DNA of 45,447 bases. It comes from Clostridia bacterium. Its GTDB lineage: Bacteria > Bacillota > Clostridia > Christensenellales > Aristaeellaceae. The stretch covers positions 1 to 45,447 of the forward strand of contig JAFUGS010000014.1 of the NCBI GenBank assembly GCA_017469265.1. The letters run 5' to 3'. A model generated the notes under the pieces. The model saw nothing but the letters and a program-made list of their open reading frames with translations. It was not told where the DNA came from and searched no databases. Of this stretch, positions 16,452 to 32,424 are shown one piece after another; within the stretch, counting starts at the first letter, position 1; every line of letters begins with the position of its first letter. Made by a program: the position numbers and the translations under genes.

Positions 16452-17297
16452 ATGGAACTGACTTTGGAAGAGAAGCAGGAAAGAGTAAAGGATCTCCGCC
16501 CGATTGATGATGTGTTCTTTGAGGTCTTCGCAGACGATAAGGACGTCATGCAGGAAATCCTGCGGACGATCCTCGAGGATGACGGTCTGATCGTGACAGA
16601 CGTGATCCCCCAGTCCAGCGAGCGAAATCTGTACGGACGGTCCATCCGGCTGGATGCCCTCTGTCAGCTGAGCAGCGGCGCGAAGGTCAATGTGGAAGTG
16701 CAGCGAAGCGACCGGGATGATCACACGAGGCGGGTGCGCTTCAACGCCTCCGTGATCACGGCGAAAGAATCCTATCCCGGAGACCGCTTTGCGGACATTC
16801 TGGAGCTGTATGTAGTTTATATCTCGGAGTTCGATATTTTCCGTAAAGGAAAAACGATCTACCATGTCGAAAATGTGATTCAGGAGACTGGGGAGCTCCT
16901 GGATGACGGACTCCACCGGGTGTTTGTGAACACAGAGATCGACGATGGAACCCCCATCGCATCCCTGATGTCCTGTTTCACAAGGAAGATGGTTAACAAT
17001 CCCCGGTTCCCGCTCGTATCGGAACGGGTTACGAATCTGAAGACAACGGAAGGAGGTCAGAACGCTGTGTGCGCTGTAATGGAAAAATATGAAAAGCAGG
17101 CCAGAGAGGCCGGTCTGGCGGAAGGCCGCGCAGAAGGCCGCGCAGAAGGCCGCGCAGAAGGCCGCGCGGAAGGTGAGGACAAGCTGAATCAGCTTCTGAC
17201 GGCCCTGATCGGAAAGAACAGATACAAGGACATCGAAGAAATGACCAGCAACGTGGAGTACCGAAACAAGCTCTACAAAGAGTTCGGCATTGCCTGA
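16452..17297 (+). CDS. Rpn-family PD-(D/E)XK nuclease / transposase-like protein
   Basis: A 281-residue member of the Rpn (recombination-promoting nuclease, YhgA-like) family. The N-terminal half is a PD-(D/E)XK nuclease. The conserved opening is RPIDDVFFEVFADDKDVM, and the active site is visible as IRLDALC...VNVEVQRSD (D, then ExQ). Residues 205-281 form a flexible linker of AEGR repeats and a C-terminal helical tail (LITALIGKN-type, here LLTALIGKNRYKDIEEM). The longer open frame upstream crosses the promoter, so ATG at 16452 is used. Rpn proteins of E. coli are DNA endonucleases with anti-phage activity; a similar role here is by analogy. An internal Shine-Dalgarno lies at 17049-17057, and a terminator follows the gene. 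Confidence 0.85.
   Translation: MELTLEEKQERVKDLRPIDDVFFEVFADDKDVMQEILRTILEDDGLIVTDVIPQSSERNLYGRSIRLDALCQLSSGAKVNVEVQRSDRDDHTRRVRFNASVITAKESYPGDRFADILELYVVYISEFDIFRKGKTIYHVENVIQETGELLDDGLHRVFVNTEIDDGTPIASLMSCFTRKMVNNPRFPLVSERVTNLKTTEGGQNAVCAVMEKYEKQAREAGLAEGRAEGRAEGRAEGRAEGEDKLNQLLTALIGKNRYKDIEEMTSNVEYRNKLYKEFGIA
17067..17297 (+). CDS. Candidate internal-start short Rpn product
   Basis: Inside the rpn reading frame an ideal Shine-Dalgarno (AAGGAGGT, 17050-17057) is followed after 10 bases by an in-frame GTG (17067). Initiation there would give a 76-residue C-terminal protein with the AEGR linker and tail but no nuclease domain. In E. coli, RpnA-type genes make such short internal products that inhibit the full-length nuclease. 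Here the signal is seen in sequence only; no expression evidence exists. Confidence 0.45.
   Translation: MCAVMEKYEKQAREAGLAEGRAEGRAEGRAEGRAEGEDKLNQLLTALIGKNRYKDIEEMTSNVEYRNKLYKEFGIA
17121..17168 (+). repeat. Four 12-bp in-frame tandem repeats in rpn
   Basis: Four head-to-tail copies of GAAGGCCGCGCA (the last with one change) encode E-G-R-A units of the linker. Copy-number change by slippage would alter the linker by four residues without breaking the frame. Confidence 0.95.
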
Positions 17298-17325
17298 TCC
17301 GGCATTTGCTGGAAGGAAATCCCCC

Positions 17326-17362
17326 GGTTCCTGTCGAAAAAAATGCAGGAACCTATTTTTAA
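17326..17362 (+). terminator. Terminator after rpn
   Basis: GGTTCCTG, 12-base loop, CAGGAACC, then TATTTTTAATT. Confidence 0.85.
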
Positions 17363-17463
17363 TTCTGGACATGGTGCCATTGCGAATGATTTAAAATGAG
17401 AATCGATCCTTCAATACGGTGATACCAATTGAAATCCCCGGAGTAAAGGAGGCGGCAAAGCAA

Positions 17464-17733
17464 ATGCAGACAGCGATGAGCAATCAGCAGCAGCGCCAGA
17501 TGATCTGGAGCCGCAAGCTGGCCCAGATGGACCACGACACCCAGCTCGCCAGCGCAAAAAAAGAAGGGCGCGCGGAAGGACGTACAGCAGGAATTGCGGA
17601 AGGAACGAACAAAGCAATGTCGTTAATGTCCAGGCTTTTCTCCCTCGGCAGAACCAACGACGCCATGCGGGCCGCGACTGATGAAGATTTCCGCCGCTCG
17701 TTATATGCGGAATTCGGAATGAGTGAGAATTAA
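17464..17733 (+). CDS. Stand-alone Rpn-type C-terminal tail protein 1
   Basis: 89 residues (MQTAMSNQQQRQMIW... to ...SLYAEFGMSEN) with no nuclease domain. It has the layout of an Rpn C-terminus: a conserved head, a short AEGR-type linker (KKEGRAEGRTAGIAEG) and a helical tail ending in a YAEFG-like segment, comparable to the YKEFG end of the full-length protein. AAAGGAGG lies 11 bases before the ATG. Upstream codons in the same frame (IEIPGVKEAAKQ) look like further Rpn sequence, so the gene may be a remnant of a second rpn copy or a dedicated short gene. Its head is nearly identical to that of the next gene. Confidence 0.6.
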   Translation: MQTAMSNQQQRQMIWSRKLAQMDHDTQLASAKKEGRAEGRTAGIAEGTNKAMSLMSRLFSLGRTNDAMRAATDEDFRRSLYAEFGMSEN

Positions 17734-17736
17734 CAA

Positions 17737-18000
17737 ATGTCTACAGCGATAAGCAATCAGCAGCAGCGCCAGATGATCTGGAACCGCAGGCTGGCCCAGA
17801 TGGACCACGACACCCAGCTCGCCAGCGCGAGAATCGAAGGAGAAGCTCGTGGAGAAGTTCGTGGAAAAGCAAAGGGAGAAAAAAAGTTGGCACAGTTAAT
17901 CTCCAAACTGATCACCCTTGGAAGAAATCAGGATATCCCCATAGCCGCGGAAGACCCCGCATACAGGGAAAAGCTTTACGCGGAGCTGAATATCAAATAA
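17737..18000 (+). CDS. Stand-alone Rpn-type C-terminal tail protein 2
   Basis: 87 residues, starting three bases after the stop of tail protein 1. The first 30 residues (from ISNQQQRQMIW to DTQLASA) match tail 1 almost exactly, also at DNA level (about 17471-17560 against 17744-17833). After that the linker (RIEGEARGEVRGKAKGE) and helical tail (LISKLITLGRNQDI...KLYAELNIK) diverge. The sharp boundary between a constant head and a variable tail suggests duplication with tail exchange. No strong ribosome site of its own; translation is probably coupled to the upstream gene. Confidence 0.55.
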   Translation: MSTAISNQQQRQMIWNRRLAQMDHDTQLASARIEGEARGEVRGKAKGEKKLAQLISKLITLGRNQDIPIAAEDPAYREKLYAELNIK

Positions 18001-18164
18001 CCGAAGCCCTACAACATCAAGTATGAAGGAGGTTAAGCCAAAGGCAAAAAAGAAGAGACGAAAAACCGCAGTGGATCTGTTGCCGCGATTGCAGCACTGC
18101 TGAAAGGCAATGTCCGGATCGCTCCTCCACCTCTTCTGTTATGTCCCCGCCCGAGGCGAAAAAG

Positions 18165-18338
18165 ATGTCAAGAAAGATTTTTACCGCATTGTGTATTGTC
18201 TGCACAGCAACACTCCTGATCCACCTGAATACAGGAGCAGGGAAATGGACGACCATTCTTCTGCTTTTCGAGGGTCTGCTCGCGATAGCCGCCGCAACCC
18301 AGGAAATAATCCGCTTGATACGCAAAAGAAAATGCTGA
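18165..18338 (+). CDS. Small two-helix membrane protein
   Basis: 57 residues: MSRKIFTALCIVCTATLLIHL forms a first helix, a short turn with GAGKW follows, and TILLLFEGLLAIAAATQEII forms a second, ending in basic RLIRKRKC. GAGG lies 8 bases before the ATG and a terminator starts 8 bases after the stop, which together support a real gene. Family not recognised. Confidence 0.5.
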   Translation: MSRKIFTALCIVCTATLLIHLNTGAGKWTTILLLFEGLLAIAAATQEIIRLIRKRKC

Positions 18339-18346
18339 AAAAAAGA

Positions 18347-18385
18347 ATCCCCACTCTCTTCAGGGTGGGGATCTTCTCATTTTTT
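18347..18385 (+). terminator. Terminator after the small membrane protein
   Basis: ATCCCCAC, 10-base loop, GTGGGGAT, then CTTCTCATTTTTT. Confidence 0.8.
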
Positions 18386-18471
18386 GGCATTTCACGGGAA
18401 GTCATGGACGTTCTCTGTTTCCATGCTCCGCATCCGCCGGATTATACAGAACCCATTCCTACAGCATTTCA

Positions 18472-18609
18472 TCAGCACACTGGCTGCACAGCACGTCTCA
18501 AGGATATCGGCCGTCCCAGCTCTTCCGGTTTTGAAGGTTCGTCAATCTTTGCAGCCATTTCTTCTAACGCATCTAAACGCTTTTTTTGGCTCTCACAGTT
18601 TTTGCTCAT
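18472..18609 (-). CDS. Short hypothetical ORF (doubtful)
   Basis: 45 codons, starting MSKNCESQKKRLDALEEM and ending RRAVQPVC, in the otherwise empty stretch 18386-18640. The composition is protein-like (charged, helical) but no ribosome binding site is seen. The remainder of the stretch has no other recognisable feature. Confidence 0.2.
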   Translation of the reverse strand: MSKNCESQKKRLDALEEMAAKIDEPSKPEELGRPISLRRAVQPVC

Positions 18610-18642
18610 CGAAAGTAAGAACTGGAAGTAAAGCCATGAATA

Positions 18643-18651
18643 TGTTATAAT
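18643..18651 (+). promoter_or_regulatory. Extended -10 of the island operon
   Basis: TGT-TATAAT, an extended -10 with a perfect hexamer. The -35 region is poor. The first gene of the three-gene operon starts 90 bases downstream. Confidence 0.5.
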
Positions 18652-18740
18652 TCAATGCATGCACCACCCATAATTCATTTTCATCTGGCACATAGTTATG
18701 ACGGGTAGTAAAAAGAGAAGACAGAGAAAGGTTACAGCGG

Positions 18741-20039
18741 GTGAAGGCAATGGAACAGTATCAGATGAAGAATCTCTACTCAGCGGGTAACTATCAGGAG
18801 ATCATTGCTCTTTGGCAGAACCTTGAGGAACGAAAACAGTTCACGGAATGGGATTACGTGTACGTAATGAACACTTTCTACGCACAAAAAAACTATGAAC
18901 AGTGCCTTGAGGTTTATCGTGCTTTTCATGCTGTATTCCCCGAATCTGATAAGCTGGATGATAAAATGAGCTGGTCTTGCTATCACGCCAGGATCAAAGG
19001 ATTCGACTTCAAAACCGGGGACGCCGAAAAGCTGCGCCGGCAAGCTGAGTATATAATCACACACAGCGGTCAAAGCGTCTACTCTCCGAAGTGGTTTATG
19101 GTAAAGTATATGCTTGAGCATATGAAAAGCGGCGACTTTGGCACAAATATGGACCCAAATCTTGCTCTTCGGTATATTGAACAGGTAGATCCCACATCAC
19201 TCTCTACCAAATCTGAAGAATATACTGCGGAAAATGGCCGAAGGATATCCCTGGCCTCCGATAAAGAAAACTGGTATAAGGAACACACAAAGGTTCTTCT
19301 GGCGGTTGGACAATATGAGAAATGCATTGCAAGCTGCGATGCGGCGCTGTTTAACCTGCACACATTCCACAGCAATAATGATAGCTGGTTTCGGTTTAGA
19401 AAGGCAAAAGCCTTGTATGCCCTGGGAAAAACAGACGAATCCCGGAAATATATCAAAGAAATACAGACCAGAGGCTTAGACCATTGGTGCTTCTATCAGC
19501 TGCTTTACGAAATGGACAAAAGCGAGAATAATATAGAGAATGCGATGATACACGCCTGCATGTGCGCAACTGCCGATCCAAGCCATGAAATGCGCGTAAA
19601 ATTCTATGATGATTTCTCTCAATTTCTCGAAGGCAACGGTTATGAACGCGAAGCCATGCTTCATCGTCAGCTTGTCTTGCTGATTCGAAAAGAGAACGAA
19701 TGGACGTTGCGGGAAAACCACCTTGCATGGAAATTGCCCGACGAAATCGCAAAGATGAATAAGCACGCCGTTTTAAAAGAACTTCAGGAATTCTGGAACA
19801 AATGGAAGAACCGAAACAAAGAGTATTTTACAGGAGTCATAAAACGCCTGCTGAGCGAAGGAAAATCCGGATTTATTGAAGCCAACGATGGAAACAGCTA
19901 TTATTTTAATGCCCGTGACTTTCAGAAACGCGGCACGGTTCCCCAGGAAGGAATGAAAGTAAGATTTGCGCTTACGGACAGACTGGATAAAAGCAAGGGC
20001 GTAGTAAAGAAAAATGCGATAGAATTAACCGTGATCTGA
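18741..20039 (+). CDS. TPR-like protein with C-terminal cold-shock-like domain
   Basis: 432 residues, predicted cytoplasmic. Residues 1-350 are helical and contain TPR-like pairs (MKNLYSAGNYQEIIALWQNL, YAQKNYEQCLEVYRAFHAVFPES, LLAVGQYEKCIASCDAALF, KAKALYALGKTDESRKYI). The last 70 residues, from GVIKRLLSEGKSGFIEANDG to KKNAIELTVI, have the pattern of a cold-shock/S1-like OB fold (GFI, YYF, G..V.F), a nucleic-acid-binding module. The start may be GTG 18741 or ATG 18750; AAAGG nine bases upstream favours the GTG. First gene of a tight operon with the helicase-methyltransferase and DUF1848 genes. Codon use is more AT-rich than in genes outside the island. Likely an adaptor or RNA-binding subunit; this is inference. 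Confidence 0.7.
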   Translation: MKAMEQYQMKNLYSAGNYQEIIALWQNLEERKQFTEWDYVYVMNTFYAQKNYEQCLEVYRAFHAVFPESDKLDDKMSWSCYHARIKGFDFKTGDAEKLRRQAEYIITHSGQSVYSPKWFMVKYMLEHMKSGDFGTNMDPNLALRYIEQVDPTSLSTKSEEYTAENGRRISLASDKENWYKEHTKVLLAVGQYEKCIASCDAALFNLHTFHSNNDSWFRFRKAKALYALGKTDESRKYIKEIQTRGLDHWCFYQLLYEMDKSENNIENAMIHACMCATADPSHEMRVKFYDDFSQFLEGNGYEREAMLHRQLVLLIRKENEWTLRENHLAWKLPDEIAKMNKHAVLKELQEFWNKWKNRNKEYFTGVIKRLLSEGKSGFIEANDGNSYYFNARDFQKRGTVPQEGMKVRFALTDRLDKSKGVVKKNAIELTVI

Positions 20040-20052
20040 GCGAGGTATCGAA

Positions 20053-23000
20053 GTGGCGAAAAATTCATGGTATGCCTGGCGTGATGCAGAGGGAAACGGA
20101 GCAGTTTGCAAAAGCTGGGATGAATGTCAGAAGGCATGCAGCGGAAAGCGCGGCGAAAAGCATAAAGGGTTTAAAACTTATGAGGAAGCGTGGGCATTCG
20201 CTTATCCTGGAAAGCAGTATATCGAGCAAACGAAGGCACCGCCTACGGCATTCCACGAAGCAGCTCCGTCGGCAGCAGTCGATCTTAATGACGAGCTGCC
20301 TCCATGGGAAACTGATGAAAGTCTGACTAATATGTCCTCAGAGCAGATTCTCGAAGCATTGAAAAAACAAATCGAGCCAGAAAGCTTCCCAGAGACTTCT
20401 GCCCCAGTCACACATCTCGATGTTTCACGGGCCGAACAATTCGCAACATCCGACGAAGTAAATACATTCTGCTCCGCGTATCATTTCTCTCATCTGAGCG
20501 AAGAGCAGAGGCGAGCCGTGCAGGCAGTTGACGGCAAGTATCTGCTTTTTGCCGTTCCCGGCAGCGGCAAAACAACCGTTCTCATGGCTAGAACCGGGTT
20601 TTTGATTCACAGCCGTAAAGTTCCCCCAAGTACCCTGATGACGATGACTTTTACGCGTGCCTCTGCCAGGGAGATGCGGAAAAGATACTGCGATTTTTTT
20701 CATCCGGCGGAGGATCAGATACCTGATTTCAGGACAATACACAGTTTCTGTTATTCAATCGTCATTCCCATGCTTCGCCGCGCGGGCTTCAAATGCCCGC
20801 ATCATATCATCAATGAAGATATCAAAGCAAAAAGCGGCAAGAAAAAATATTCGCAGAGACTGATCCTGGCGGATATGCTGAAAATGAACCTGGGAACAGC
20901 GAAAGCTTACGATGAGGCTGCCCAGGAAACAGTTCAGACCGCTTTTTCCAGCATCAAAAACAGAAAAATGACGGAGGAGGAGTATTCCCGCTATTCAGTC
21001 AGTATTGACAAAGCAAAGTATCCTATTGCGCCATTATTTAAAACCTATCAGGAACAGCTTGACAAGATAGACTGCATGGATTTTGACGATATGCTCATCT
21101 ATGCGCTGGATGGACTATATGCGTGTCCGGGAGTTCTGAAATCTCTGCAGAAGACCTATCAATACTGGAGCATTGACGAAGCGCAGGACAATTCCAAGAT
21201 TCAGCACGAACTCATGAACCTCCTCGCTGGACCGGATGGAAACCTGTTTATGGTTGGAGACGATGACCAGAGCATATATGGATTCAGAGGTGCCGAGCCA
21301 AATATGCTGCTGGCGTTTGGGAATCAGCCTGATGTGCACCTGCTGATAATGGGCACAAACTACAGAAGTGATTACAGCATCATTGACGCGGCTAAGCCCT
21401 TCGTCGAACTCAACCACTGCAGAGCGGACAAGAACATGCGCGCCAGTCATACCCAAAGCGGTACCGTAAATATCCCTCTCAGCTTCCCGACAGAATCGCT
21501 GCAGTATGACTACATTATCGAGGCCGCGAAAGAAGCTGTAGCCCACAAGACCAAACTGGGGATTCTTTATCAGCTAAACATTTCAGCGCTTCCGCTTATC
21601 GTCCGCATGCATAAAGCCGGCATCCCCTTCGAAGCATCCATGGGACTGTCCGACCTGCTGCGCAGGCGCGAAACCGGCAATCTTTTCCGGCTGTTAAGCT
21701 TTTCGCAGCAGCAGAACAGTCTGGAGTGCTTCCAGCAATGCCGGAGGGCACTTGGGCTTTACTGGTTTACCGAAGAATGGATGAATCAGCTGAAGCGAGC
21801 ACACGAGCAGAATAAGAAAAAGGATCTTCTGCAAATCATATATGACAGCTTTGAAGAGGAAAGCGCAAGAAGCCGGAGCGTTTTGAGAATTCATAAAACG
21901 CTGCAGTCAATCAAGGATTTATCTCCTTCGCATGCAATTGAGACTCTGCTAAAATGCCCGGATCTGGCGCCTTCAGCTGAAATACTGACTGAAAGGCTGT
22001 CGATCTATGCTGTACTGAGCGTTTGCGATCTTTATGAAACGATTCCCGAAATGCTGCAGTCTCTGGCCAGCATGCGGGAAGCGGAAAAGCAGAAGGAAAC
22101 CGAGATTCCGGAGTATGAGAGCACAGCTGAAACCCAGGCCGTCGTCACCGGAAACAACACCTTCATTACGCTTTCAACAATTCATTCCGCGAAAGGCCGG
22201 GAATGGGATCGGGTCATCTTGATTGACTCATTCCAGGAAACATTTCCCGGTGAACCCCAGTTTGACAGAATCGGATATGACCCTGAAGAAGCGCGGAGAG
22301 TGTTTTATGTCGCAGTGACTCGGGCGATACACAGGCTTGATATTCTAAGCGTTAGATTATGGCATGGAAACGCTGAACAGATCAGCAAATTTATTCCTGA
22401 ATTAGCCTGGATCATAGAACAAGGAACCGGCGAAGTGCTTCCCCATGCGGAAAGAGCCTCCGAAACAAGTATTCCCAGCTCCGAATGCCTGCTTGCCCCT
22501 TCAGTTTTCTATGGTGTACCCGCCGGAAGAGCGCCCGGCGTTTACACAGATTATAAAAAAGCGAATGAGCAGGTCAAAGGATATTCCATACCGCCGGGAA
22601 AGCAGTTGAAAAAATTCCTTACCTTTGACGAGGCATGGAAATATACTTTTCCGGACAAGCCAGTTCCAAAACAAAAAAACCGCCTGGCTACGCAGTCCAT
22701 AAGCAGCATCATTCAATTATCCGGAGGTGTTGCCTTTAACACGGGTGTGGATATTCCCGTTGAAGTTCGAAGAGCAATATGCAGTCATCTGAATGTAGGG
22801 TCATTTGACGATCTGTCTATGGATAGAATCAGAAAGCTGAAAACGGATTGTGACTTTTACGGAGGTAATGCCCAAGCGGATTACCACGGACACGCAGATG
22901 GCTACACAGCCGTTTATCTGCCCGTGAACTATTACAAAGTCTGGCTGCCTCTATGGATTCTTCTATCCGAAGAAAAGCTGCCAAAAAATGCTCGAATCCT

Positions 23001-23592
23001 GGAGCTTGGTCCAGGTCCCGGAACAGCAACCTGGAGTCTGATAGCATTTTACAAAACGCTTGCGAAAGATAATCCGGAACACAACTTTTCGCTTGAATAT
23101 ACCGCGGTTGAAAGAGAATCTGATTTCAGAGAAATATTCCGCGGGATTCAGCGTGAGGTGATAGATGCCCTGCCGGGAAATCTGCAAGTCAGCATGGATC
23201 TGATATCTTCCACAGACGCATTTCAGTTTATTGGAACGAGGAATTGCAACGACTTTGATCTGATTCTGGAAAGCAACATGCTGAACAAAGCGGAAAATAC
23301 CACAGGAAAAGAGATGCGGGATTATCTTTCGGGATTGCAGCAAAACCTGAAAACAGGCGGATACGGTATATTTATTGAGCCAGGCAAAAACAGTGATGTA
23401 GAATTCTTGAATGCGGCCGCAAAGGCGGCGGAAAAAGAATACAACTGTCATCTATTCCGAGAAGCCGTAAAATCCGCCGTCTGCCTGGAGGGAAACTCCC
23501 TTGTGGAACAGTCGATCAAAATTGGGCTTCGATACAGCCAGCGCATGGCGCACTGGTTCAGCTGCATGATTCTGGAGAGAGGTGCAATATGA
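20053..23592 (+). CDS. Viroplasmin-SF1 helicase-viroplasmin-Rsm22-like methyltransferase fusion
   Basis: 1179 residues. Residues 4-55 (WYAWRDAEGNGAVCKSW...KGFKTYEEAWAFA) are an RNase H1 N-terminal/viroplasmin domain, known to bind RNA-DNA hybrids or dsRNA. Residues 145-790 are a UvrD-type SF1A helicase: AVPGSGKTTVL (about 167), SIDEAQDNS, GDDDQSIYGFRGAE, TIHSAKGREWDRV, VFYVAVTRA. A second viroplasmin domain follows (FYGVPAGRAPGVYTDYKK, about 818-870). The C-terminus (about 970-1179) is a class I methyltransferase with the SAM-binding ILELGPGPGTATWS and an ILESNMLNK motif, resembling the Rsm22 rRNA methyltransferase family. It starts 13 bp after the TPR gene and overlaps the DUF1848 gene by 4 bp. 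The domain order is one I do not recognise from any described protein. Confidence 0.85.
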   Translation: MAKNSWYAWRDAEGNGAVCKSWDECQKACSGKRGEKHKGFKTYEEAWAFAYPGKQYIEQTKAPPTAFHEAAPSAAVDLNDELPPWETDESLTNMSSEQILEALKKQIEPESFPETSAPVTHLDVSRAEQFATSDEVNTFCSAYHFSHLSEEQRRAVQAVDGKYLLFAVPGSGKTTVLMARTGFLIHSRKVPPSTLMTMTFTRASAREMRKRYCDFFHPAEDQIPDFRTIHSFCYSIVIPMLRRAGFKCPHHIINEDIKAKSGKKKYSQRLILADMLKMNLGTAKAYDEAAQETVQTAFSSIKNRKMTEEEYSRYSVSIDKAKYPIAPLFKTYQEQLDKIDCMDFDDMLIYALDGLYACPGVLKSLQKTYQYWSIDEAQDNSKIQHELMNLLAGPDGNLFMVGDDDQSIYGFRGAEPNMLLAFGNQPDVHLLIMGTNYRSDYSIIDAAKPFVELNHCRADKNMRASHTQSGTVNIPLSFPTESLQYDYIIEAAKEAVAHKTKLGILYQLNISALPLIVRMHKAGIPFEASMGLSDLLRRRETGNLFRLLSFSQQQNSLECFQQCRRALGLYWFTEEWMNQLKRAHEQNKKKDLLQIIYDSFEEESARSRSVLRIHKTLQSIKDLSPSHAIETLLKCPDLAPSAEILTERLSIYAVLSVCDLYETIPEMLQSLASMREAEKQKETEIPEYESTAETQAVVTGNNTFITLSTIHSAKGREWDRVILIDSFQETFPGEPQFDRIGYDPEEARRVFYVAVTRAIHRLDILSVRLWHGNAEQISKFIPELAWIIEQGTGEVLPHAERASETSIPSSECLLAPSVFYGVPAGRAPGVYTDYKKANEQVKGYSIPPGKQLKKFLTFDEAWKYTFPDKPVPKQKNRLATQSISSIIQLSGGVAFNTGVDIPVEVRRAICSHLNVGSFDDLSMDRIRKLKTDCDFYGGNAQADYHGHADGYTAVYLPVNYYKVWLPLWILLSEEKLPKNARILELGPGPGTATWSLIAFYKTLAKDNPEHNFSLEYTAVERESDFREIFRGIQREVIDALPGNLQVSMDLISSTDAFQFIGTRNCNDFDLILESNMLNKAENTTGKEMRDYLSGLQQNLKTGGYGIFIEPGKNSDVEFLNAAAKAAEKEYNCHLFREAVKSAVCLEGNSLVEQSIKIGLRYSQRMAHWFSCMILERGAI

Positions 23593-24539
23593 TTTTAAGC
23601 GTGAGCCGCCGTACTGATATTCCCGCGTTTTACGCGCCATGGTTTATCCGACGGCTGGAAGAAGGGTATGTGCTCGTCCGCAACCCGATGAATTACCACC
23701 AGGTTAGCAGGGTAAGTTTAGCCCCGGATGTAATTGACTGTATCGTTTTCTGGTCAAAGAATCCGGCACCACTTCTCCGCCATCTTGAATACATCGGAAG
23801 CCGGTACCCATTCTATTTTCAGTATACGCTAAACGCGTATGAAAAAGAAATCGAGCCTGGCCTGGTTCCCCTAAGCGAGCGGATCGATACCTTTCGCCAA
23901 TTGAGCAGGGCGATTGGCCCAGACAGAGTAATATGGAGATATGACCCGATATTCATCTCGCCAAAGTACAATGCGCAATGGCATGCAGAGCAATTCAGGA
24001 ACCTGGTCAAAGCGCTTGCAAAGTATACAGATACATGCGTAATCAGCTTTGTCGATCTGTATGAAAAAGTGAAAAAGACCGCATCATGTTTTGGTATTTC
24101 GGAATGTTCAGAAGAAGAAATGAACAAGCTGGCCTCCGCAATTTCTATAGCTGCAAAGGAAGCTGGCATTCAGGTAAAAACGTGCGCAGAAAAAATAGAT
24201 CTGCAAAAATACGGAATCACGCACAACTGCTGTATTGATGCAGAATTGATTTCAAGGATTACAGGCTGGAAACTGAAAGTAAAAAAGGATCCGAATCAGC
24301 GTGCGGAATGCGGATGCATCGAAAGCATTGATATAGGGCAGTATAATACATGCAAACACGGGTGTAAATATTGCTATGCCACTTTTAATCCCCATAGCGT
24401 GGAAACCTTTTCCAAAAGGCATCTGCCAGAATCATCGCTGCTGATCGGAGAGCTTGAGTCAGAAGATAAAATCACAGACCGAAAAATGAAGAGCTTAAAG
24501 GACCATGTTTCTGGTCAAATATCGCTATTTGACATGTAA
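23589..24539 (+). CDS. DUF1848 protein with C-terminal cysteine cluster
   Basis: 316 residues, matching the DUF1848 family: ILSVSRRTDIPAFYAPWF at the N-terminus, DCIVFWSKNPAPLL, VIWRYDPIFIS and CAEKIDL. Near the C-terminus is CKHGCKYCYATFNP, a CX3CX2C motif identical in spacing to the radical-SAM iron-sulfur ligand set, preceded by CGC. The protein may thus carry a 4Fe-4S cluster. The ATG overlaps the stop of the helicase-methyltransferase gene (ATGA), so the two are translationally coupled and probably act together. An IS256-type element has landed on its stop codon without changing the protein. Catalytic activity is not known for this family. Confidence 0.8.
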   Translation: MILSVSRRTDIPAFYAPWFIRRLEEGYVLVRNPMNYHQVSRVSLAPDVIDCIVFWSKNPAPLLRHLEYIGSRYPFYFQYTLNAYEKEIEPGLVPLSERIDTFRQLSRAIGPDRVIWRYDPIFISPKYNAQWHAEQFRNLVKALAKYTDTCVISFVDLYEKVKKTASCFGISECSEEEMNKLASAISIAAKEAGIQVKTCAEKIDLQKYGITHNCCIDAELISRITGWKLKVKKDPNQRAECGCIESIDIGQYNTCKHGCKYCYATFNPHSVETFSKRHLPESSLLIGELESEDKITDRKMKSLKDHVSGQISLFDM

Positions 24540-24545
24540 GAAGAA
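24538..24545. repeat. Left target-site duplication of the IS element
   Basis: AAGAAGAA, repeated exactly at 26062-26069. The first two bases are the last two of the DUF1848 stop codon. Confidence 0.9.
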
Positions 24546-26061
24546 GGCTCTGTGAAATTTTTTCTGTAAACACCGGTCTTCTACGATAAAACCGTGTGAG
24601 TGGTGGCCGAACGGCAGATTCTGCTGTTCGGCCTCTTGCCTACAACGTACCAGAAATCAGGCAGACATGTCAAGGGCGCCCGGCGAGCCGGGCGTTCATT
24701 TTACCCTTGATATGGCTGGCTGTTTCTGGTATTAGTCGGGCAACCGTCCCTCGTACATAATGGATAATTCACCGTAAATCTTGCCCCAGTTGTGGATCTG
24801 CATCGTCCATTTTTTTGTGGCCTCGAATGTTGACAGATACAATGCTTTCAGCAAAGCTGTATCGCTGGGAAATACACTGCGCTGCCGGTTGAGCTTGCGG
24901 TAAGTGGAGTTCAGGCTCTCAATGGCGTTTGTAGTGTAGATCACAGTTCGGACATCCTTGGAGAACTTAAAGATAGGGCTGACAGCATCCCAGTTGTCGT
25001 ACCAGCGTTTCATGGCCCGGGGATATTTCTCTTCCCATTTTTCTGTGACTTCATCCAGCATTTCCCGGCCTTCTTTTTCGGATGGAGCATTGTAGATCTT
25101 CTTCAGATCTGCGGCAAAAGCTTTTCGGTCTTTATCTGCAACATATTTCAGCGTGTTACGGACCTGGTGGACAATACAGCGTTGGTATTCCGTATTGGGA
25201 AATGCCGCTGCAATAGCTTCCTTGATTCCGGTCAGACCATCAGCGCACAGAATCAGAATATCCTTTACTCCGCGATTCTTGAGCTCATTCAGTACGGAAA
25301 GCCAGTACTTGGAGCTTTCATTCTCCCCGACCTGGATGGTGAGTACCTCTTTCATTCCTTCGCAGTTAATACCCAGGATAACGTAGGCTGCCAGTTTCCG
25401 AATGACATTGTTGTCCCGGACAGAATAATGAATGGCGTCAATGTAAATAACCGGATAAACCTCATTCAGCGGGCGCTTCTGCCACTCTTCGATCTGCGGA
25501 AGAAGCTTGTCCGTCACATCGGAAATGAACCCCTCTGAGGCCTCGAAACCGTAGATATCCATGAGCGTATCGGAGATCTGCCGGGTGGTCATTCCTTTGG
25601 CATACATGGATATGATCTTCTGATCAATCTCAGAGATATCCTTTTGCCGCTTCTTCACGATCTTGGGTTCAAAGGTGGACTTGCGATCCTGCGGAACATC
25701 GATCTCCATACTGCCATAGGTAGTATTGATCCGCTTGGTTTTGTAACCATTCCGGGCATCGTCACTGTCGGAACGCTGAGATTTTTCATATCCGAGATGA
25801 TCATCCATCTCTGCTTCCATCATTTCCTTGATGGTTCCGCCGAGTAGATCTTTCAGGGCTTCCTGAATGTCTGATGCAGACTGTATGTCATATTCCTGCA
25901 GCAATCCCTGAATGATGTTCCGCTTTCCTTCGGTCATGGGTCCCGGTCTGTAGACTTCCTTCTTCTTGTTCGCCATAAAAATCGGCCTCCTCTGATAGTT
26001 TTTATCTTATCATAGAAGACCGTTGCTTTTCAGCTATTTACAGACTTTTTTTCACAAGCTC
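24546..26061 (-). mobile_element. IS256-family insertion sequence, complete
   Basis: 1516 bp. Left end GGCTCTGTGAAATTTTTTCT and right end (inverted) GAGCTTGTGAAAAAAAGTCT are imperfect terminal inverted repeats that continue through TGTAAA and into a shared GGTCTTCTA segment. Flanked by the 8-bp direct repeat AAGAAGAA. It encodes one transposase on the minus strand. About 185 bp of non-coding sequence with a GCCCGGCGAGCCGGGC-type hairpin lies at its left end. Confidence 0.93.
24732..25976 (-). CDS. IS256-family (Mutator) transposase
   Basis: 414 residues, full length for the family. It has the N-terminal region with LLGGTIKEMMEAEMDDHLGYE and RNGYKTKR, then the DDE catalytic residues in VIYIDAIHY (about 178), LCADGLTGI (about 244) and TTNAIESLN (about 351), with the family signature CIVHQVRNTLKYV between. 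No frameshift or stop, so the element is probably active. It would cut and reinsert the surrounding IS. Confidence 0.96.
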   Translation of the reverse strand: MANKKKEVYRPGPMTEGKRNIIQGLLQEYDIQSASDIQEALKDLLGGTIKEMMEAEMDDHLGYEKSQRSDSDDARNGYKTKRINTTYGSMEIDVPQDRKSTFEPKIVKKRQKDISEIDQKIISMYAKGMTTRQISDTLMDIYGFEASEGFISDVTDKLLPQIEEWQKRPLNEVYPVIYIDAIHYSVRDNNVIRKLAAYVILGINCEGMKEVLTIQVGENESSKYWLSVLNELKNRGVKDILILCADGLTGIKEAIAAAFPNTEYQRCIVHQVRNTLKYVADKDRKAFAADLKKIYNAPSEKEGREMLDEVTEKWEEKYPRAMKRWYDNWDAVSPIFKFSKDVRTVIYTTNAIESLNSTYRKLNRQRSVFPSDTALLKALYLSTFEATKKWTMQIHNWGKIYGELSIMYEGRLPD

Positions 26062-26193
26062 AAGAAGAAAAGTCATCATCTTTTGCCCCTATCTTCCGCC
26101 AAATTGGATGATTTTCCCGATAAACAGAATGATTCACTCCCTGTTATTCCAGTGAAATACTGGAATTGACTTCTTTAATCCGGTCTCTGACAT
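26060..26193 (-). other. Two overlapping mini-ORFs, second cut by the IS
   Basis: ATG at 26193 with AAAGGAG five bases upstream opens a 19-codon frame (MSETGLKKSIPVFHWNNRE). Its stop overlaps a GTG (26137) that opens a 25-codon frame (VNHSVYRENHPIWRK...DDDFSS). The second frame ends on a TGA made by the junction of the IS end and its target duplication; without the IS it would run a few codons further. They may be the degenerate end of one gene or a short coupled pair. No family recognised. Confidence 0.3.
26062..26069. repeat. Right target-site duplication of the IS element
   Basis: AAGAAGAA, matching 24538-24545. Confidence 0.9.
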
Positions 26194-26253
26194 TTAATCT
26201 CCTTTACCTGATAATGCCGGGAATATAAGGTTGCGTTAACAGGGGCTGAAAGC

Positions 26254-26655
26254 TCACCAGTCATCGCTGCCAACGTCAAAGTCAAAGCCGTCGGAAGCAG
26301 CATCAAAATAATCTCTATCCGAGAAGTAATTCTCAGTTGTGCCTTCATCGCGTTCAAAATCCACAGTGAACGAATCAGCCTCTTCTGCTTGCTCTTTTTT
26401 AAAAGGGTCACCATGCATCCAGGCGTTTCTCCCCATCAGGATTTCATCATCCATATATCCATATGCGCCACCCCCAGAGAAGGCCTCTCCTCCGAATGCC
26501 GACTCATAAGATTGGCCTACATAGTTTCCATCAGTGTCATAGAAATCTTCTCCGTCCCCGACAATGCTTGGTAAAGAGTATCCTACTTTATTTCCTGCAT
26601 TATCATAAACGTCCGAACCGCCAAAAATACCTCTTATGAGATGGAATCTTTCCAT
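26254..26655 (-). CDS. Small acidic protein with beta-repeat pattern
   Basis: 133 residues, strongly acidic, especially at the C-terminus (DAASDGFDFDVGSDDW). The N-terminal half repeats the pattern (V/F)YD-x-(A/D)GN-x-VG-x-S twice (VYDNAGNKVGYS, FYDTDGNYVGQS), reminiscent of short beta-hairpin scaffold repeats found in small bacterial proteins. AAAGGA lies seven bases before the ATG. It overlaps the preceding 113-residue gene by 22 bp and is third in the operon after the helicase-HEPN gene. Possibly a partner, inhibitor or scaffold; no function can be assigned. Confidence 0.65.
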   Translation of the reverse strand: MERFHLIRGIFGGSDVYDNAGNKVGYSLPSIVGDGEDFYDTDGNYVGQSYESAFGGEAFSGGGAYGYMDDEILMGRNAWMHGDPFKKEQAEEADSFTVDFERDEGTTENYFSDRDYFDAASDGFDFDVGSDDW

Positions 26656-26975
26656 TTATTATTCCTTTCTCTTTCAACGTAGTCACCGTATTCGAGAGAA
26701 TTGTATCCATGATCCTCTGCGAGCTTATCAATATAGGCATCTTCATAGTTTACAGGAAACGCCTCATAGAGCTGTTTAAAAACCAGCGACTGTTTAGCCG
26801 CTTCCGCAAGTTCATGAGGATGATCCACGATGATTTCCCGTCCGCGTTCCAGAAATATATGCATTACGCTGTTCTCTACGAATGCATCAGAAATGGCATC
26901 GGGATTCAAGTATATCAATCTGTAGCTCTTATCACCATATTCCGACTCTATAGCTTCTCGTATCTTCACCAGCAT
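26634..26975 (-). CDS. Hypothetical protein in the helicase-HEPN operon
   Basis: 113 residues, mixed alpha/beta, no signal peptide or membrane segment, starting MLVKIREAIESEYGDKSYRL. GGGGG precedes the ATG. It starts 15 bp after the stop of the helicase gene and overlaps the next small gene, so the three are one transcript. Family not recognised. A small cytoplasmic partner or regulator of the helicase is the likeliest reading from context. Confidence 0.65.
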   Translation of the reverse strand: MLVKIREAIESEYGDKSYRLIYLNPDAISDAFVENSVMHIFLERGREIIVDHPHELAEAAKQSLVFKQLYEAFPVNYEDAYIDKLAEDHGYNSLEYGDYVERERNNKWKDSIS

Positions 26976-26990
26976 TTGATTTCCCCCTTC

Positions 26991-29900
26991 TTACCAGTCT
27001 TGTTGTTGTGGCTCAAGGTAGTAATCATCTAAGCTAATGGATCCTATGCCATATATATTAATAAATTTCCGATCGCATTTCCTGCAACGCAGCATATTCA
27101 GTTTCTTCTTTTTCCCAAGTTTATTCCTTACTTCAAACAGTTCCTGTACTAAATTGCTTCTGTCCGCGGGGCAGATATGAACCTTGCAGTACATGGGATA
27201 ATATTTGAACATACTGTCTTTATACTGTTCATCTCTTGCTGCCTGCATGGACTGTTTGATAGCATCCATATCCTGTTGCAATGGATGATCAATCTTCGTT
27301 GAAATCGCTTGCCGGAAAGTTCTATCGAACATCAGTCCCTGATAATGCTTTTCGTTCTCCTCATATCCAATAAACAGCTGGGTGATGAGCGATCTCAATT
27401 CATTCCAATGGAAGACAGCGCCAGGGTGGGCACATTTGTTCCGATAATCCTTGCATTTCCTTAAGCGCTTTGATAAGCGGCTCCACCATTCTATATCACA
27501 TTCTGGACAACCTATCTTATCCATTGCAATTGCAAGTTCCCTGGCCCTGCTGGAGATGATAGTGGTTACGTCTCCGATCATTACAGACTCTGGCGAAACA
27601 GTAGCAATCTTTTTCCCCTGCACGGTTTCATCAGGGAAAAGCTGCTGGAGCCAAACAAAATAGTTTTGCTTTAGTATTTGCTCATACGCTTTGCAGAAAC
27701 AAATTCCAACAAAAGACGCATCGTAATTATCAGGCAGTGTATCGGCGCTCTGATCGATCCATGTATAAATCCACATTCCAGTGCGCAGCAGGTCCTTTGT
27801 CTTGTCATCAAACAGAGACTCGAACTCATCCATGGATGTCAGGCCAAAGTTTTTCAGCTGCTCAGATGTAAAATCCATAGCCAGGCCGGGTACGGCCGCT
27901 CTGACATTGCCAATACTGGAATCCGTATTAATAACATACTCTGTTTCCCCGGGTTCGTTTTCATCTGTAATATCGGAGATATCAAAAAGTTCAGAGGACG
28001 GCAGTTCAGGTATCTCGAACAGCTTTTCATCATCCTCGTCCAAAGCAAAAGATGAAGCTGCTTCTGCCAGCTGATTAAACTGATGAGCGTCCAGGTCAAA
28101 CTTCATTTCCATGACGGGATCGCATCCACGCCAGGCTTTTACATCTCCTATAGCATAGAGCCGGTATTTGGCCCGGCTCACGGCCACGTTGATAATATTG
28201 CGGTTAACCCAATTAGCGGAGCGTTTGGATTTTTCATCACATCCCAGCAATAAGATAACTTCATCCGCTTCTCTGCCTTGGAAAGTGTGAACCGTACCGA
28301 TATGAGGATTCTGGTCATCCATCAGCCAGTTTTCAACCATTTCTCTGTTTTGCAGCAGAATCGGATGATTCGCGTTAAATGAATTTGAGAGAAGGTTCCT
28401 CATTCCTTCAGCGACGGTATGGAAAGGGCTGATTACGAAGATATCCGGGCCTGCCGCGATTTTAGCTTCATCCCCAGTTAGCGCGACGGTCTCGAAGGCT
28501 GTTTCAAGCAGCTCGATTACGCGTTCCCCCTGAGCGCGGACAAAATGGTTTTTATCAGACTCGGCTTCTCCTGAGACATTAAGCCATTGAGATACCCCAT
28601 AACAGAATTGTTTTTCGCTGCCGGGATTTCCCGTAATACTCAACATGGTATCGCCGTAAGACAACCTGTTGGAAATAGAAAACATTGGCTCAATGCATCT
28701 GGAATGCACATATAAAGGGAGACCAACCCATTTTTTTCCGAATCTTCCGAGAATGTCAAATTGTTCACTTCCATAGGTGGACAAATAATCCGCGATTTTC
28801 TGAACAGAAATTGTTCGGTCTGAGTAAGCGTTGCCGATTGAATCATCCAAAGTTGATTCCAGAAATGCCAATTCGTCCGATACAACCGGGTCTATCTGGT
28901 TCGGATCGCCGACAATAATAGCACGTGAAGCTTTGGAAAAAAGACTGATGGCCATCTGTGGAGTGGCCTGACCGGCTTCATCCACTACAATTGTTCCCAG
29001 AGCATCTGCTTTGGTCACATATTTAAAGAAGCGCCCTGCAGATGCAAATGTGGTCGAGATAACGGGTACCATTAATTGAAGCGTCTGAATCAAAGGCGTC
29101 ATACACTCGCGCAGTTTCAGTTCGCGCTCACCGCTTTCCAGATTCGAAAAGACATTCAGATAAGTCTCAACCCCCCAGGCCATAGATAAGAGCTGGAGAT
29201 TTGCCTTGCAGGCTTCAGAAGACAGGATAAACTCCTTTGTCAGTCTCAAAGCGTACCAGAAAAGCTTTTCTCTTTCTTCATCATATCGTTTGCTCAACCT
29301 GACGCAGGACATCTGTGCTTTTTTTCGGATATCCGGGTTTTCTGAAGAGAGGTCATCCAAAAGCCGCTCGCTTAAGCAAACAAATTTTCCGTCTCCTTCT
29401 CCACCTGTACTCAGGCCGCGCTTTTCGGCGTCTGCTACCTCAGCCTGCAGTTTTTTTCGATGCATCTCAACAATTTTATACTGTTTCTGAAACTCGTCGC
29501 GTGCCTTCAAATAAGATTGCATGCGAGAGCCTGGCGCACCCTGCAGGTATCGATCCCATTTAAGCGAGCTGAGAACCTTTTTATAAAATGCATATATATT
29601 GCTTTTCTTGCCTAACGGCGCGCTAATCAGCCCCCAGCATGGTTCTCTGAGCAAATCGGTTGCGTAGCAGCTGAAATAGATGTCCGGAAACTCAACCTTT
29701 TCCCGGGGGCTTCCTTCCTTTTCGAAATTGGTACGCATTGCAGATTCCAATGGCGCGTTCTCCAAAGAGAATAGCCTTTGGAGATCGGTTTGATCGTCAA
29801 CGTCGTTCATCAGGTTTTTTTCCAGCGTCTCAATCAGCGGAAGCTGCTTGGAAATATTTTCTACTGCGTTGTTATTGGATGAAGCGACTACAATACCATA

Positions 29901-31187: not shown

Positions 31188-31225
31188 GTTGCGCAACCCT
31201 TTCGTTCAATTTGTATTCTATCCAT

Positions 31226-31693
31226 CTAGAAAAGAGGATGAAGCGGTCGTCGAAACTTGTAATCCGTCACTTCTGAAAAGGGGAAGGAATCATTATCCAT
31301 CTTGCCCGGCTTCAGCTTCAGCTTGCTCTTTTCATCGATGTTGTACCGGTTGAACCGATCCTCGTTGTACAGATACTTCTGGATGGCGTCCTTTTCCCTC
31401 TCATCCTTCGCGGAATCGCACAGCGCTTTCAGCAGGATGTACAGCGTGGTAAAGCGCTGCTGCCCGTCGATGATGATGTAGTAGTCAATATGGTTCTTCG
31501 TTTCGAGCGGCGCGTAGACAAAGGATCCGCAAAAATGCTCCCGGTCCAGCTGATAGGCCAGCACAATATCCTCAAACAGCTTTTCACACTGTTCCGCCGT
31601 CCAGGCATAATCCCGCTGAAATACCGGTATGCAGTATTGCTTCTTATTCGGCTGGATATAATCATTCAGGATTCTTCCCTGCCCGATCTTCAT
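31226..31693 (-). pseudogene. Truncated DUF262 (GmrSD-type) gene
   Basis: The N-terminal 140 residues are typical DUF262: YCIPVFQRDYAWTAEQCEKLFEDI and DYYIIIDGQQRFTTLYILLKAL, the DGQQR motif being the family hallmark (GmrS-like NTP-binding domain of type IV restriction enzymes). Intact members are about 500-700 residues; this one stops after 155 with an unrelated tail (FPFSEVTDYKFRRPLHPLF). AAGGA is present before the ATG. The truncation point is 38 bp upstream of the helicase-HEPN start, so arrival of that operon may have replaced the 3' part. Confidence 0.75.
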
Positions 31694-31900
31694 CTGTCGT
31701 TCCGTCCTTCCATGGATGTTTTTTCCCAGCGCCGCTGCTTCTGCTTTAACTCGCCCGTTACATCTGTGATATCCCCAACCGTTAAGCCAATTGGCCCTTA
31801 ACAGATCAACTCATGGTCATAAGCGGCGTAAGAAGAAGCATCGATGTCACTATTTACCCTCATGAACATCCTCCCGCTCTCGCGCTCCGTTTTGCTCCTC

Positions 31901-32260
31901 CTATATTACCATACCCCGAAAAAAAAGAAAACCGGAAATCGAAAGAGTCATGTGATGGCAAAGAGATGTTTCTGTATCCCATGAATGGTATTCTCTCTGT
32001 TCTACAAAGAGGATAACATGCGCTGCCTGGCGCACAGACAAAAAAAGAGAGCTGCTTTTCACAGCCCCCCAGGAAATCATTCTTTCCTTACGTCTCTTCG
32101 CAATCACAGGATCCGGCCTGAACCTGATCCGGTCTTTCACTTCATCCACTTTTTCCTGGATGTCATTCACCGCGTTCTCGAAGAAGCTCCCGCCATTCAC
32201 CTGTTCCAGTTCTTTTAGATTCAGTTCGGTCTTCACTTTCTTTTCGCTTTTCGCTTTCAA
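31901..32260 (-). CDS. Double-glycine-leader-like ORF, probably degenerate
   Basis: 119 codons. Residues 10-24 read VKTELNLKELEQVNGG, which fits the leader of double-glycine peptides (bacteriocins and RiPPs exported by C39-peptidase transporters). After GG the sequence is SFFENAVNDIQEKVDEVKDRIRF, then an increasingly non-protein-like stretch. The start is TTG and no ribosome site is visible. There is no C39 transporter or modification enzyme in the window. Frame continuity near 32220 should be checked in reads, because the leader/start junction is sensitive to a single base. Confidence 0.35.
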   Translation of the reverse strand: MKAKSEKKVKTELNLKELEQVNGGSFFENAVNDIQEKVDEVKDRIRFRPDPVIAKRRKERMISWGAVKSSSLFLSVRQAAHVILFVEQREYHSWDTETSLCHHMTLSISGFLFFRGMVI

Positions 32261-32333
32261 TGCTCAAAGACATATTCGGAAATAATCAGACCGGCATCAT
32301 CGTCCCACGCTTTCGCAGTCAGAGTTCGTTTCT

Positions 32334-32382: not shown

Positions 32383-32424
32383 TAAAGCCATTTTTCACCC
32401 AATTTCCACCTGATTCTTCAGGAT

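Follow-up and report, generated by a model that had tools for sequence, protein, structure and literature searches.

What might three tightly packed genes do that combine a TPR-cold-shock (TPR-CSD) protein, a helicase carrying two viroplasmin domains and a putative methyltransferase, and a DUF1848 protein? They lie in the window, the whole stretch of 45,447 nucleotides analysed here, from a Clostridia bacterium (contig JAFUGS010000014.1). Gene order, domains and island setting were computed directly (Table 1). The plus-strand operon spans 18741-24539, with a 13-bp gap between genes 1 and 2 and a 4-bp overlap between genes 2 and 3; ORF calls and GC bins agree with the packing and AT-richer island described in an earlier note on this DNA. 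In 1.5-kb bins, GC content is 44-49% across about 18.0-31.5 kb, with two edge bins at 53% and 51%, versus 58-66% outside the island (one exception, bin 4501-6000, at 51%). The same note had placed one extended -10 before the operon: the string TGTTATAAT is present, yet the promoter scan listed no site at 18643-18651. Terminator-like hairpins in the region, one of them 5′ of the operon, are not above chance (6 found versus 7.5 expected).

The island carries several unrelated genes as cargo; it also carries a helicase most similar to Mokosh MkoC, together with a GmrSD fragment, and the neighbourhood of the operon includes a Mutator-family transposase gene. A tRNA-Val gene adjoins the end of the island. 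Its use as an integration site with an att repeat was rejected, the repeat list being without a direct repeat that matches the tRNA end, and no integrase was seen by eye among the island ORFs.

Table 1. Coordinates of the operon, its domains and motifs, and the surrounding island in the window.
Feature	Position	Strand	Basis
AT-rich genomic island holding the operon (left edge approximate)	16500-32465		GC bins
Terminator-like hairpin, 11-bp stem, 5′ of operon	18347-18372	+	hairpin scan
Extended -10 string TGTTATAAT, possible operon promoter	18643-18651	+	string match only
TPR-cold-shock (OB) protein, 432 aa, GTG start	18741-20039	+	ORF + Pfam/PADLOC
OB/CSD part of TPR-cold-shock gene	about 19830-19991	+	Pfam/PADLOC
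Viroplasmin-UvrD helicase-viroplasmin-methyltransferase, 1179 aa, GTG start (methyltransferase part weakly supported)	20053-23592	+	ORF + Pfam
First viroplasmin/RNase H1 N-terminal domain (Pfam-matched part)	20104-20199	+	PF01693 2.1e-07
UvrD/PcrA-type SF1 helicase core	20494-22344	+	PF00580 UvrD-helicase 7.5e-59; PF13361 UvrD_C 1e-22
Second viroplasmin domain, residues 819-864	22507-22644	+	PF01693 2.3e-11
C-terminal class-I SAM methyltransferase domain, weakly supported	22690-23589	+	motif I + weak profile matches
Methyltransferase motif I (ILELGPGPG)	22996-23022	+	sequence
DUF1848 protein, 316 aa, ATG start; putative circularly permuted radical-SAM enzyme	23589-24539	+	Pfam + profile comparison
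CX3CX2C motif (C255, C259, C262) of DUF1848	24351-24374	+	sequence + alignment
tRNA-Val, adjoining island's end	32466-32540	-	

The first protein matches PADLOC model PDLC01170 (6.5e-49) over residues 44-430, almost its whole length, bearing out the earlier description of a TPR protein with a cold-shock-like OB fold; its Pfam matches are TPR_14 (2.8e-05), DUF7017 (3e-07) and, below cut-off, CSD (0.028). In 13 of the 14 loci read (a count that leaves aside seven weak partial hits, five from one search and two from another), the TPR-CSD gene has a co-directional neighbour whose product is TBP-like, RnlA-like or a viroplasmin protein. The gene families sit in conflict-system neighbourhoods. An SF1 helicase is the partner in eight of the loci read; outside the window, TPR-CSD is partnered by RnlA/RnlB toxin-antitoxin genes, by NERD nuclease-helicases and by TBP-TOTE helicases. 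A search of plasmid records found no TPR-CSD gene, and among phages only MT837669.1 has one.

In the second protein, both viroplasmin (Cauli_VI) stretches, each scanned alone, exceed the PF01693 cut-off of 21 (31.5 and 44.2 bits). With the Pfam helicase matches and motifs intact by eye (GSGKT, DEAQD, GDDDQSIYGFRG and VAVTRA), they uphold the proposed pair of viroplasmin domains and UvrD-type helicase. The best NCBIfam model of the core is PcrA (2.1e-72, below that model's cut-off), and the core also matches the Gabija GajB and PADLOC RTasHel models. A TBP-TOTE domain was matched in eight helicase relatives, in seven of them above cut-off; even with E values up to 1 admitted, Pfam matched neither TBP-TOTE nor RnlA in any of the three window proteins, and scans with Pfam, PADLOC and NCBIfam revealed no nuclease or toxin domain in the operon.

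The C-terminal end had been read as an Rsm22-like SAM methyltransferase, of which the general class holds up better than the name. Besides motif I, the isolated domain matches Methyltransf_28 (0.0035) and Methyltransf_23 (0.027), both below the Pfam cut-off; PADLOC C3a159 also matches (7.3e-4), and hhalign against standalone methyltransferases gives a probability of 45% over 161 columns. A class-I methyltransferase is thereby weakly supported. The Rsm22 identity was rejected as lacking a specific match: PF09243 matches neither the window protein nor its isolated domain, and one standalone relative, L033, matches at 0.083. Against PDB sequences the domain has one match only (E 1.8), the standalone methyltransferase family HMMs do not match it, and a C3a159 search of the window's genome gave no match.

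The third protein is a clear DUF1848 member (Pfam, 5.8e-111), and the CX3CX2C cluster noted earlier is invariant across 43 aligned proteins (the window's and 42 relatives). Its relationship to radical-SAM profiles was computed directly: against PA0069 (30 of 30 proteins used), 119 columns align, only once permuted, with a score of 80.9 that was reached by 0 of 60 block-shuffled controls. PA0069 is the radical-SAM family closest to DUF1848 in these comparisons; rSAM_link_UDG, a putative DNA modification/repair family (25 of 30 proteins used, five being dropped at 343 aa or less), gave no signal outside the Cys motif. This indicates that DUF1848 is probably a radical-SAM enzyme in circularly permuted form, akin to the PA0069 family, a candidate identity for a protein family not named in the literature searched. 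The partial TIM barrel that comes after the cluster in radical-SAM enzymes would have its order circularly changed in DUF1848. Spore photoproduct lyase is a relative of the PA0069 radical-SAM group. NCBIfam radical-SAM matches alone prove little, because single members of the 43 match unrelated families at similar E-values (for example, 0.0015 for a metallo-beta-lactamase model). Comparison with PDB sequences, as single sequence or profile, returned nothing meaningful. The window protein also matches the PADLOC RTasDUF1848 model.

The full three-gene set recurs in a gut virome contig (L016, MT837669.1), where the three genes keep their order, the second protein has 33% identity, and helicase and methyltransferase are again fused in one chain. 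The co-occurrence elsewhere on which the earlier note had staked its reading was thus found, once in full. The window and L016 being the only known occurrences of the full set, these two loci are all that links the helicase to the other two genes. A phage-integrase-family gene lies near the other end of the L016 contig. In L041 (IMG/VR 3300027373_000207), a TPR-CSD gene is followed, with 8-bp and 1-bp gaps, by an RnlA-domain-methyltransferase fusion and DUF1848, after which comes a serine-recombinase gene. Viral contigs searched with the second protein yielded no further full operon; nor did genome and viral contigs searched with the methyltransferase-domain alignment. A search of 299 phylum genomes with the C-terminal 380 residues matched, apart from the window itself, four sequences weakly (3.1e-7 to 8.7e-4) and across the viroplasmin stretch; the methyltransferase alignment had no convincing match and two weak partial ones in the 296 genomes of the order besides the window's own, five of which belong to its genus. 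No plasmid record covered 80% of the second protein. The whole second-protein alignment retrieved 17 viral loci, in all of which the helicase core alone matched and none of which matched the TPR-CSD, methyltransferase or DUF1848 models.

Recurrent pairings were likewise computed directly, and the methyltransferase and DUF1848 recur as a pair, virus-classed contigs included. Of 52 viral loci, 9 have a methyltransferase gene immediately 5′ of DUF1848 (L037 and L038 repeat L036; L032, with a methyltransferase-like match 3.5 kb away, was left out), as do 4 of 6 genomes that the methyltransferase family matched among 391. The HMMs were built partly from counted loci (L033, L035, L036, L041 and L043); only L034 and L040 of the nine lie outside the HMM-building loci, and the L040 methyltransferase scores the same as that of L035. 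On the DUF1848 tree, which omits L040 and the partial L016 and labels L039, without upstream sequence, as unlinked, methyltransferase-linked rows cluster (5 changes; the mean after shuffling is 11.9, and none of 500 shuffles gave so few). The tree groups the window with L029, which has no upstream methyltransferase; other clades have one in 0 of 41 loci, several of these with little upstream sequence (about 500 bases in L049 and L073). DUF1848 is far wider than the window-type system, and in other clades some of its genes lie after Sir2-like genes. The gene that follows DUF1848 in L045 is similar to S-adenosylmethionine synthase along a stretch of about 50 residues (7.5e-08).

The reading we favour, to which we give somewhat less than an even chance, is a TOTE-like conflict system with a hybrid-binding helicase for recognition and a two-enzyme SAM-dependent modification module as effector; that it binds and unwinds hybrids, which reaction modifies which target, and that it serves in defence are all inferred from sequence. 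The TPR-CSD protein would be a shared sensor or adaptor, with the OB fold as its nucleic-acid-binding part, and the second protein would replace the TBP- or RnlA-containing partner of its relatives. Its two viroplasmin domains may recognize RNA-DNA hybrid or dsRNA, onto which the UvrD core would load and unwind; the methyltransferase and DUF1848 could then chemically modify the exposed nucleic acid, disabling replication or transcription of the invader. A bolder and rather unlikely form would be a non-cutting class of anti-invader system, in which the TOTE-type sensor calls in the helicase and this delivers hypermodification by the methyltransferase and DUF1848 onto invader R-loops or replication primers, leaving them chemically blocked.

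Repair instead of defence is an unlikely alternative: a mobile cassette for nucleic-acid repair would use its UvrD-like helicase to open damaged hybrids, and the radical-SAM DUF1848 with the methyltransferase to reverse the damage. The closeness of DUF1848 to PA0069 fits this, as does a Planktothrix plasmid on which a DUF1848 gene lies two genes from AlkB; the missing signal to rSAM_link_UDG beyond the Cys motif and the conflict setting of TPR-CSD partners elsewhere speak against it. It is distinctly improbable that the substrate of the methyltransferase-DUF1848 pair is a nucleotide or protein, for example to make a viperin-like modified nucleotide that is released once TPR-CSD and helicase sense an invader. 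Methyltransferase and DUF1848 do also occur without a window-type helicase, and DUF1848 weakly matches the PADLOC viperin-kinase model (6e-05), but that match is confined to the Cys-motif region, and the methyltransferase-helicase fusion in the window and L016 suits a nucleic-acid substrate. Equally doubtful is a restriction-modification-like scheme in which the helicase attacks with TPR-CSD while methyltransferase and DUF1848 mark host nucleic acid for self-protection. The pair follows type I restriction-modification genes in L033 and L040, and the third gene of RnlA loci is an antitoxin; against this, methyltransferase and helicase share one chain, and, as the domain scans revealed neither a nuclease nor a toxin in the operon, an attack without modification would depend solely on unwinding. 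Three accessory genes merely sharing an island are very improbable, for although the cargo is mixed and the full set rare, the tight spacing, the conserved order in L016 despite divergence and the return of TPR-CSD, methyltransferase and DUF1848 in L041 largely refute chance.

Among known systems, Gabija was rejected: no GajA lies beside the helicase or was found in the island, the neighbours being TPR-CSD, DUF1848 and the Mutator-family transposase. GajA is an OLD ATPase-TOPRIM protein. DRT and UG-Abi systems were rejected since their partner gene is missing, no reverse transcriptase being found among island proteins scanned with Pfam (unscanned gap ORFs are at most 173 aa). The RnlA/RnlB (RNase LS) toxin-antitoxin loci L017 and L018 share TPR-CSD as first gene, but an RnlA-type toxin and RnlB antitoxin replace the helicase-methyltransferase and DUF1848. 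L041 is alike in having TPR-CSD first, a methyltransferase-containing gene second and DUF1848 third; it differs in that an RnlA_toxin domain replaces the viroplasmin-helicase and its methyltransferase is of the C3a159 type. TOTE (TPR, OB, TBP, Effector) conflict systems are named in PMC12458937 with reference to Aravind, Iyer et al. 2022; in the accessible text of that paper, TPR-CSD counts among the core genes and as a hallmark of TOTE, and RNase H domains are described as common there. TALON, in that same text, is likewise a helicase operon, carrying RNase H-fold domains along with the TPR-CSD and TBP genes that it has in common with TOTE; it differs in its YprA-type helicase and NERD nuclease, with viroplasmin, methyltransferase and DUF1848 not mentioned in that text. 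The claim that no system of this composition had been described stands for the full three-gene set, of which no description was found in the literature searched, but not for its parts: TPR-CSD is core to TOTE according to the accessible text of PMC12458937, and the PADLOC models RTasHel, RTasDUF1848 and C3a159 match window proteins or relatives. PADLOC candidate PDC-M16 looks like a helicase-TBP version of TOTE. The window operon shares with TOTE a TPR fused to a cold-shock-like OB fold and adjoining a nucleic-acid-binding partner. It differs in its two viroplasmin domains, its UvrD/PcrA-type rather than AAA_30/PIF1-like helicase and its candidate effector of methyltransferase plus DUF1848; it also lacks a TBP domain and is therefore TOTE-like, not a TOTE member. 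If our favoured reading is true, the range of TOTE-type systems would widen beyond TBP-guided nucleases and toxins to include a helicase that binds hybrids and has a modification effector.

The three ORFs of the operon (listed in the table below) were confirmed at the positions given by the earlier note, spaced as it had described by a 13-bp gap and then a 4-bp overlap. In the second protein, the UvrD parts (7.5e-59 and 1e-22) and both stretches read as viroplasmin domains (each scanned by itself, 2.1e-07 and 2.3e-11) passed the Pfam cut-offs, as did DUF1848 in the third protein (5.8e-111). With an E-value of 6.5e-49, the first protein (TPR-CSD) matched the PADLOC model 'TPR repeats containing protein fused to cold shock-like domain (OB-fold)'. 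The methyltransferase is the weakest of these domain assignments: motif I was recognized by eye, Pfam matches were sub-threshold (best 0.0035) and the PADLOC model C3a159 gave 7.3e-4. Its proposed Rsm22 identity was not borne out, as no Rsm22 match was found in the window protein. Of the proposed extended -10, the string is present at 18643-18651, yet a consensus scan gives no promoter at that site.

Features of the operon and its surroundings in the window
Feature	Position	Strand	Remark
PD-(D/E)XK transposase-family gene	~16.4-17.3 kb		other cargo
12-bp-unit repeat	17106-17177		within the PD-(D/E)XK transposase-family gene
107-bp direct repeat (91%)	17461-17840		just past the PD-(D/E)XK transposase-family gene
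TPR-CSD ORF	18741-20039	+	first gene of the operon
Viroplasmin-UvrD-viroplasmin-methyltransferase ORF	20053-23592	+	second gene of the operon
DUF1848 ORF	23589-24539	+	third gene of the operon
Mutator-family transposase	24732-25976		other cargo
Two small ORFs after the MkoC-like helicase	26634-26975, 26254-26655	-	no Pfam or PADLOC match
SF1 (UPF1-like) helicase, 1401 aa	26991-31196	-	best PADLOC match Mokosh MkoC, 1e-56
GmrSD N-terminal fragment, 155 aa	31226-31693	-	apparently truncated
tRNA-Val	32466-32540		adjoins island end

The three families also occur together elsewhere: a human-gut virome contig (L016, MT837669.1; tblastn coverage 88%, identity 31%) has all three genes in the identical order. 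Its TPR-CSD (43% identity) has an in-frame stop near the 5′ end of the gene relative to the window, its second protein (33%) has the two viroplasmin domains as well as the methyltransferase domain, and its DUF1848 covers the first 82 residues (77% identity) before the contig ends; a phage-integrase-family fragment (3.2e-16) lies near the opposite end. No further complete copy was found in plasmid, phage, viral-contig and genome-contig searches. Across 297 genomes of the order (5 listed as same-genus), the methyltransferase alignment matched convincingly in the window's own genome only, with weak partial matches in two others (1.3e-4 and 6.1e-4), and the C-terminal 380 residues searched against 299 genomes of the phylum returned the window plus four matches, all weak and covering the viroplasmin stretch.

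The operon lies in an island of 44-49% GC (~18.0-31.5 kb), against 58-66% outside (1.5-kb bins; the exception is bin 4501-6000, at 51%). No integrase gene was seen among the island's ORFs inspected by eye, and no direct repeat with the tRNA-Val end is in the repeat list of the window. The MkoC-like helicase and the two small ORFs are possibly a second defence operon.

Fourteen TPR-CSD loci were read (the window, L016-L018, L022-L026, L041 and L101-L104, L-numbers denoting loci from other contigs), and in 13 of them a same-strand neighbour encodes a nucleic-acid-binding partner. In L022, L025, L026, L101 and L102 this partner is a helicase carrying a TBP-TOTE domain; it is a NERD nuclease-helicase with TBP-TOTE in L024, L103 and L104 (the Pfam domain being above cut-off in seven of these eight and below it in L102, 2.3e-4), and a viroplasmin-helicase in the window and L016. 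L017 and L018, which have type I restriction genes nearby, encode an RnlA-type protein with RnlB as the next gene (RnlA-toxin_DBD and RnlB exceed the cut-off; RnlA_toxin is below it). The partner in L041 (IMG/VR 3300027373_000207) is a protein with an RnlA_toxin domain, which passes the cut-off when its N-terminal part is scanned alone (9.7e-07) and narrowly misses it over the full length (1.1e-05). The exception is L023, where the helicase is on the opposite strand and a TBP match is absent. TPR-CSD counts among the core genes of the published TOTE conflict systems (PMC12458937). In the TPR-CSD tree the window clusters with L016 (support 100/100), and the TBP-helicase loci L101 and L102 are placed next to this clade (85/90). 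The three DUF1848-linked rows do not make up a single clade with support (2 changes needed, a value that 112 of 500 shuffles equalled or undercut). An RnlA/HEPN RNase LS gene (HEPN_RnaseLS 6.9e-26) was also seen at 16969-18000 of L103, ~4 kb from the NERD-helicase-TBP and TPR-CSD pair.

The pair METHYLTRANSFERASE-DUF1848 was examined through a DUF1848 scan of viral contigs, which gave 52 loci. A methyltransferase gene is directly upstream of DUF1848 in nine (L033-L038, L040, L041 and L043, with L037 and L038 repeating L036), all of them among the 11 closest loci (L033-L043), where L039, one of the other two, is without upstream sequence; none of the remaining 41 has such a gene in that place. 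Within a phage collection, L027 and L028 have the upstream methyltransferase, L029-L031 do not and L032 gave a distant match only. Among 391 genomes of the class, six were matched by C3a159, the window's own genome being unmatched, and in four of the six the match is directly upstream of DUF1848. On the DUF1848 tree (54 rows), the 13 methyltransferase-linked rows (window included) need 5 changes (shuffled mean 11.9; 0/500 as low) and fall in more than one clade; the window DUF1848 groups with L029 (96/89), a locus without the methyltransferase. Compared with standalone methyltransferases, the window domain is colinear but weak (hhalign probability 45%, 161 columns), and against a second standalone group hhalign gave 34% over 39 columns. 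Type I restriction genes precede the pair in L033 and L040. The order in L041 is TPR-CSD, RnlA-domain-methyltransferase (C3a159 7.3e-17), DUF1848 and then a serine recombinase, so that TPR-CSD company and the methyltransferase-DUF1848 pair are united in one locus. Separately, a DUF1848 clade without methyltransferase was seen in viral contigs (L045, L047, L048, L051-L053, L055 and L057), with a Cys-rich gene of ~155-170 aa upstream and, by eye, ParB-like genes downstream.

DUF1848 probably represents a radical-SAM enzyme in permuted order, a fold predicted from profile comparisons. Its alignment (n=43; window plus 42 relatives) contains seven invariant cysteines, including those of CX3CX2C near the C-terminus, after which comes Y and then, in nearly all sequences, A. 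The Cys motif of the PA0069 radical-SAM family sits near the N-terminus. The PA0069 model was matched by 19 of the 43 (NCBIfam, per sequence; window residues 249-269), all sub-threshold (best 0.0035) and at E-values similar to those at which single members match unrelated models. When hhalign profiles of the 43 and of 30 PA0069 proteins were compared, the native order scored 68.4 over 26 columns, while permutation at window residue 236 gave 80.9 over 119 columns (probability 97%). Segments after the cluster share one register (SVSRRTDIP/SGNTDCYQP, SKNP/TKNA and EPGLVPLSERIDTF/EPRTSTPANRLKAI; DUF1848/PA0069). When the body was block-shuffled and the Cys block in front of it kept, scores stayed at or below 77.6 (0/60 at 80.9). 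Without the Cys block, the body gave 25.7 in the matching register and its shuffles ≤22.9 (0/60), though the hhalign probability of the body was only 4%; a reversed profile scored 15.8. With 25 rSAM_link_UDG proteins the alignment was confined to the Cys motif, and PDB sequence searches with DUF1848 found nothing. In L045, a virus-classed contig, the gene after DUF1848 (6227-7030) resembles N-terminal S-adenosylmethionine synthase over ~50 residues (7.5e-08), a hint that DUF1848 there uses SAM. In the window's own genome a further version of DUF1848 comes after a Sir2-like gene (L002, contig C36, 46021-46800, minus strand; by eye), and a Roseburia sp. 831b plasmid (L183 4322-6942) has the annotated order protein-ADP-ribose hydrolase, Sir2, DUF1848; a link with NAD/ADP-ribose systems is possible.

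The analysis observed gene order, domains and pairings; what the operon binds, its chemistry, its target and any role in defence are inferred. On the likeliest reading, TPR-CSD would be a sensor or adaptor, and the second protein would bind RNA-DNA hybrid or dsRNA via its two viroplasmin domains. RNase H1 N-terminal domains bind these substrates. For RNase LS proteins with an RNase H1 N-terminal domain, similar binding is proposed in PMC3710099. The helicase protein would then unwind the bound hybrid or dsRNA, and the opened strand would be modified by the fused methyltransferase and DUF1848. Rival explanations are that the operon has a repair function, that it makes a small-molecule or protein product, or that the methyltransferase-DUF1848 pair provides self-protection.

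A literature text search, with most subscription papers outside its scope, found no paper naming DUF1848, none joining it with reverse transcriptase and none combining viroplasmin, helicase, methyltransferase and operon. A single paper bringing together viroplasmin, helicase, TPR and defence deals with HEPN domains, and TPR-CSD appeared in one preprint, which is also the one that names TOTE conflict systems. Circular permutation and radical SAM are mentioned together in nine papers, and the text examined from one of these has no bearing on DUF1848. The reverse-transcriptase-associated PADLOC models stem from UG/Abi reverse transcriptase surveys. The operon would work like a TOTE (TPR, OB, TBP, Effector) conflict system, from which it differs in the absence of the TBP feature; it is therefore not filed as a TOTE member, and its candidate effector is unusual.
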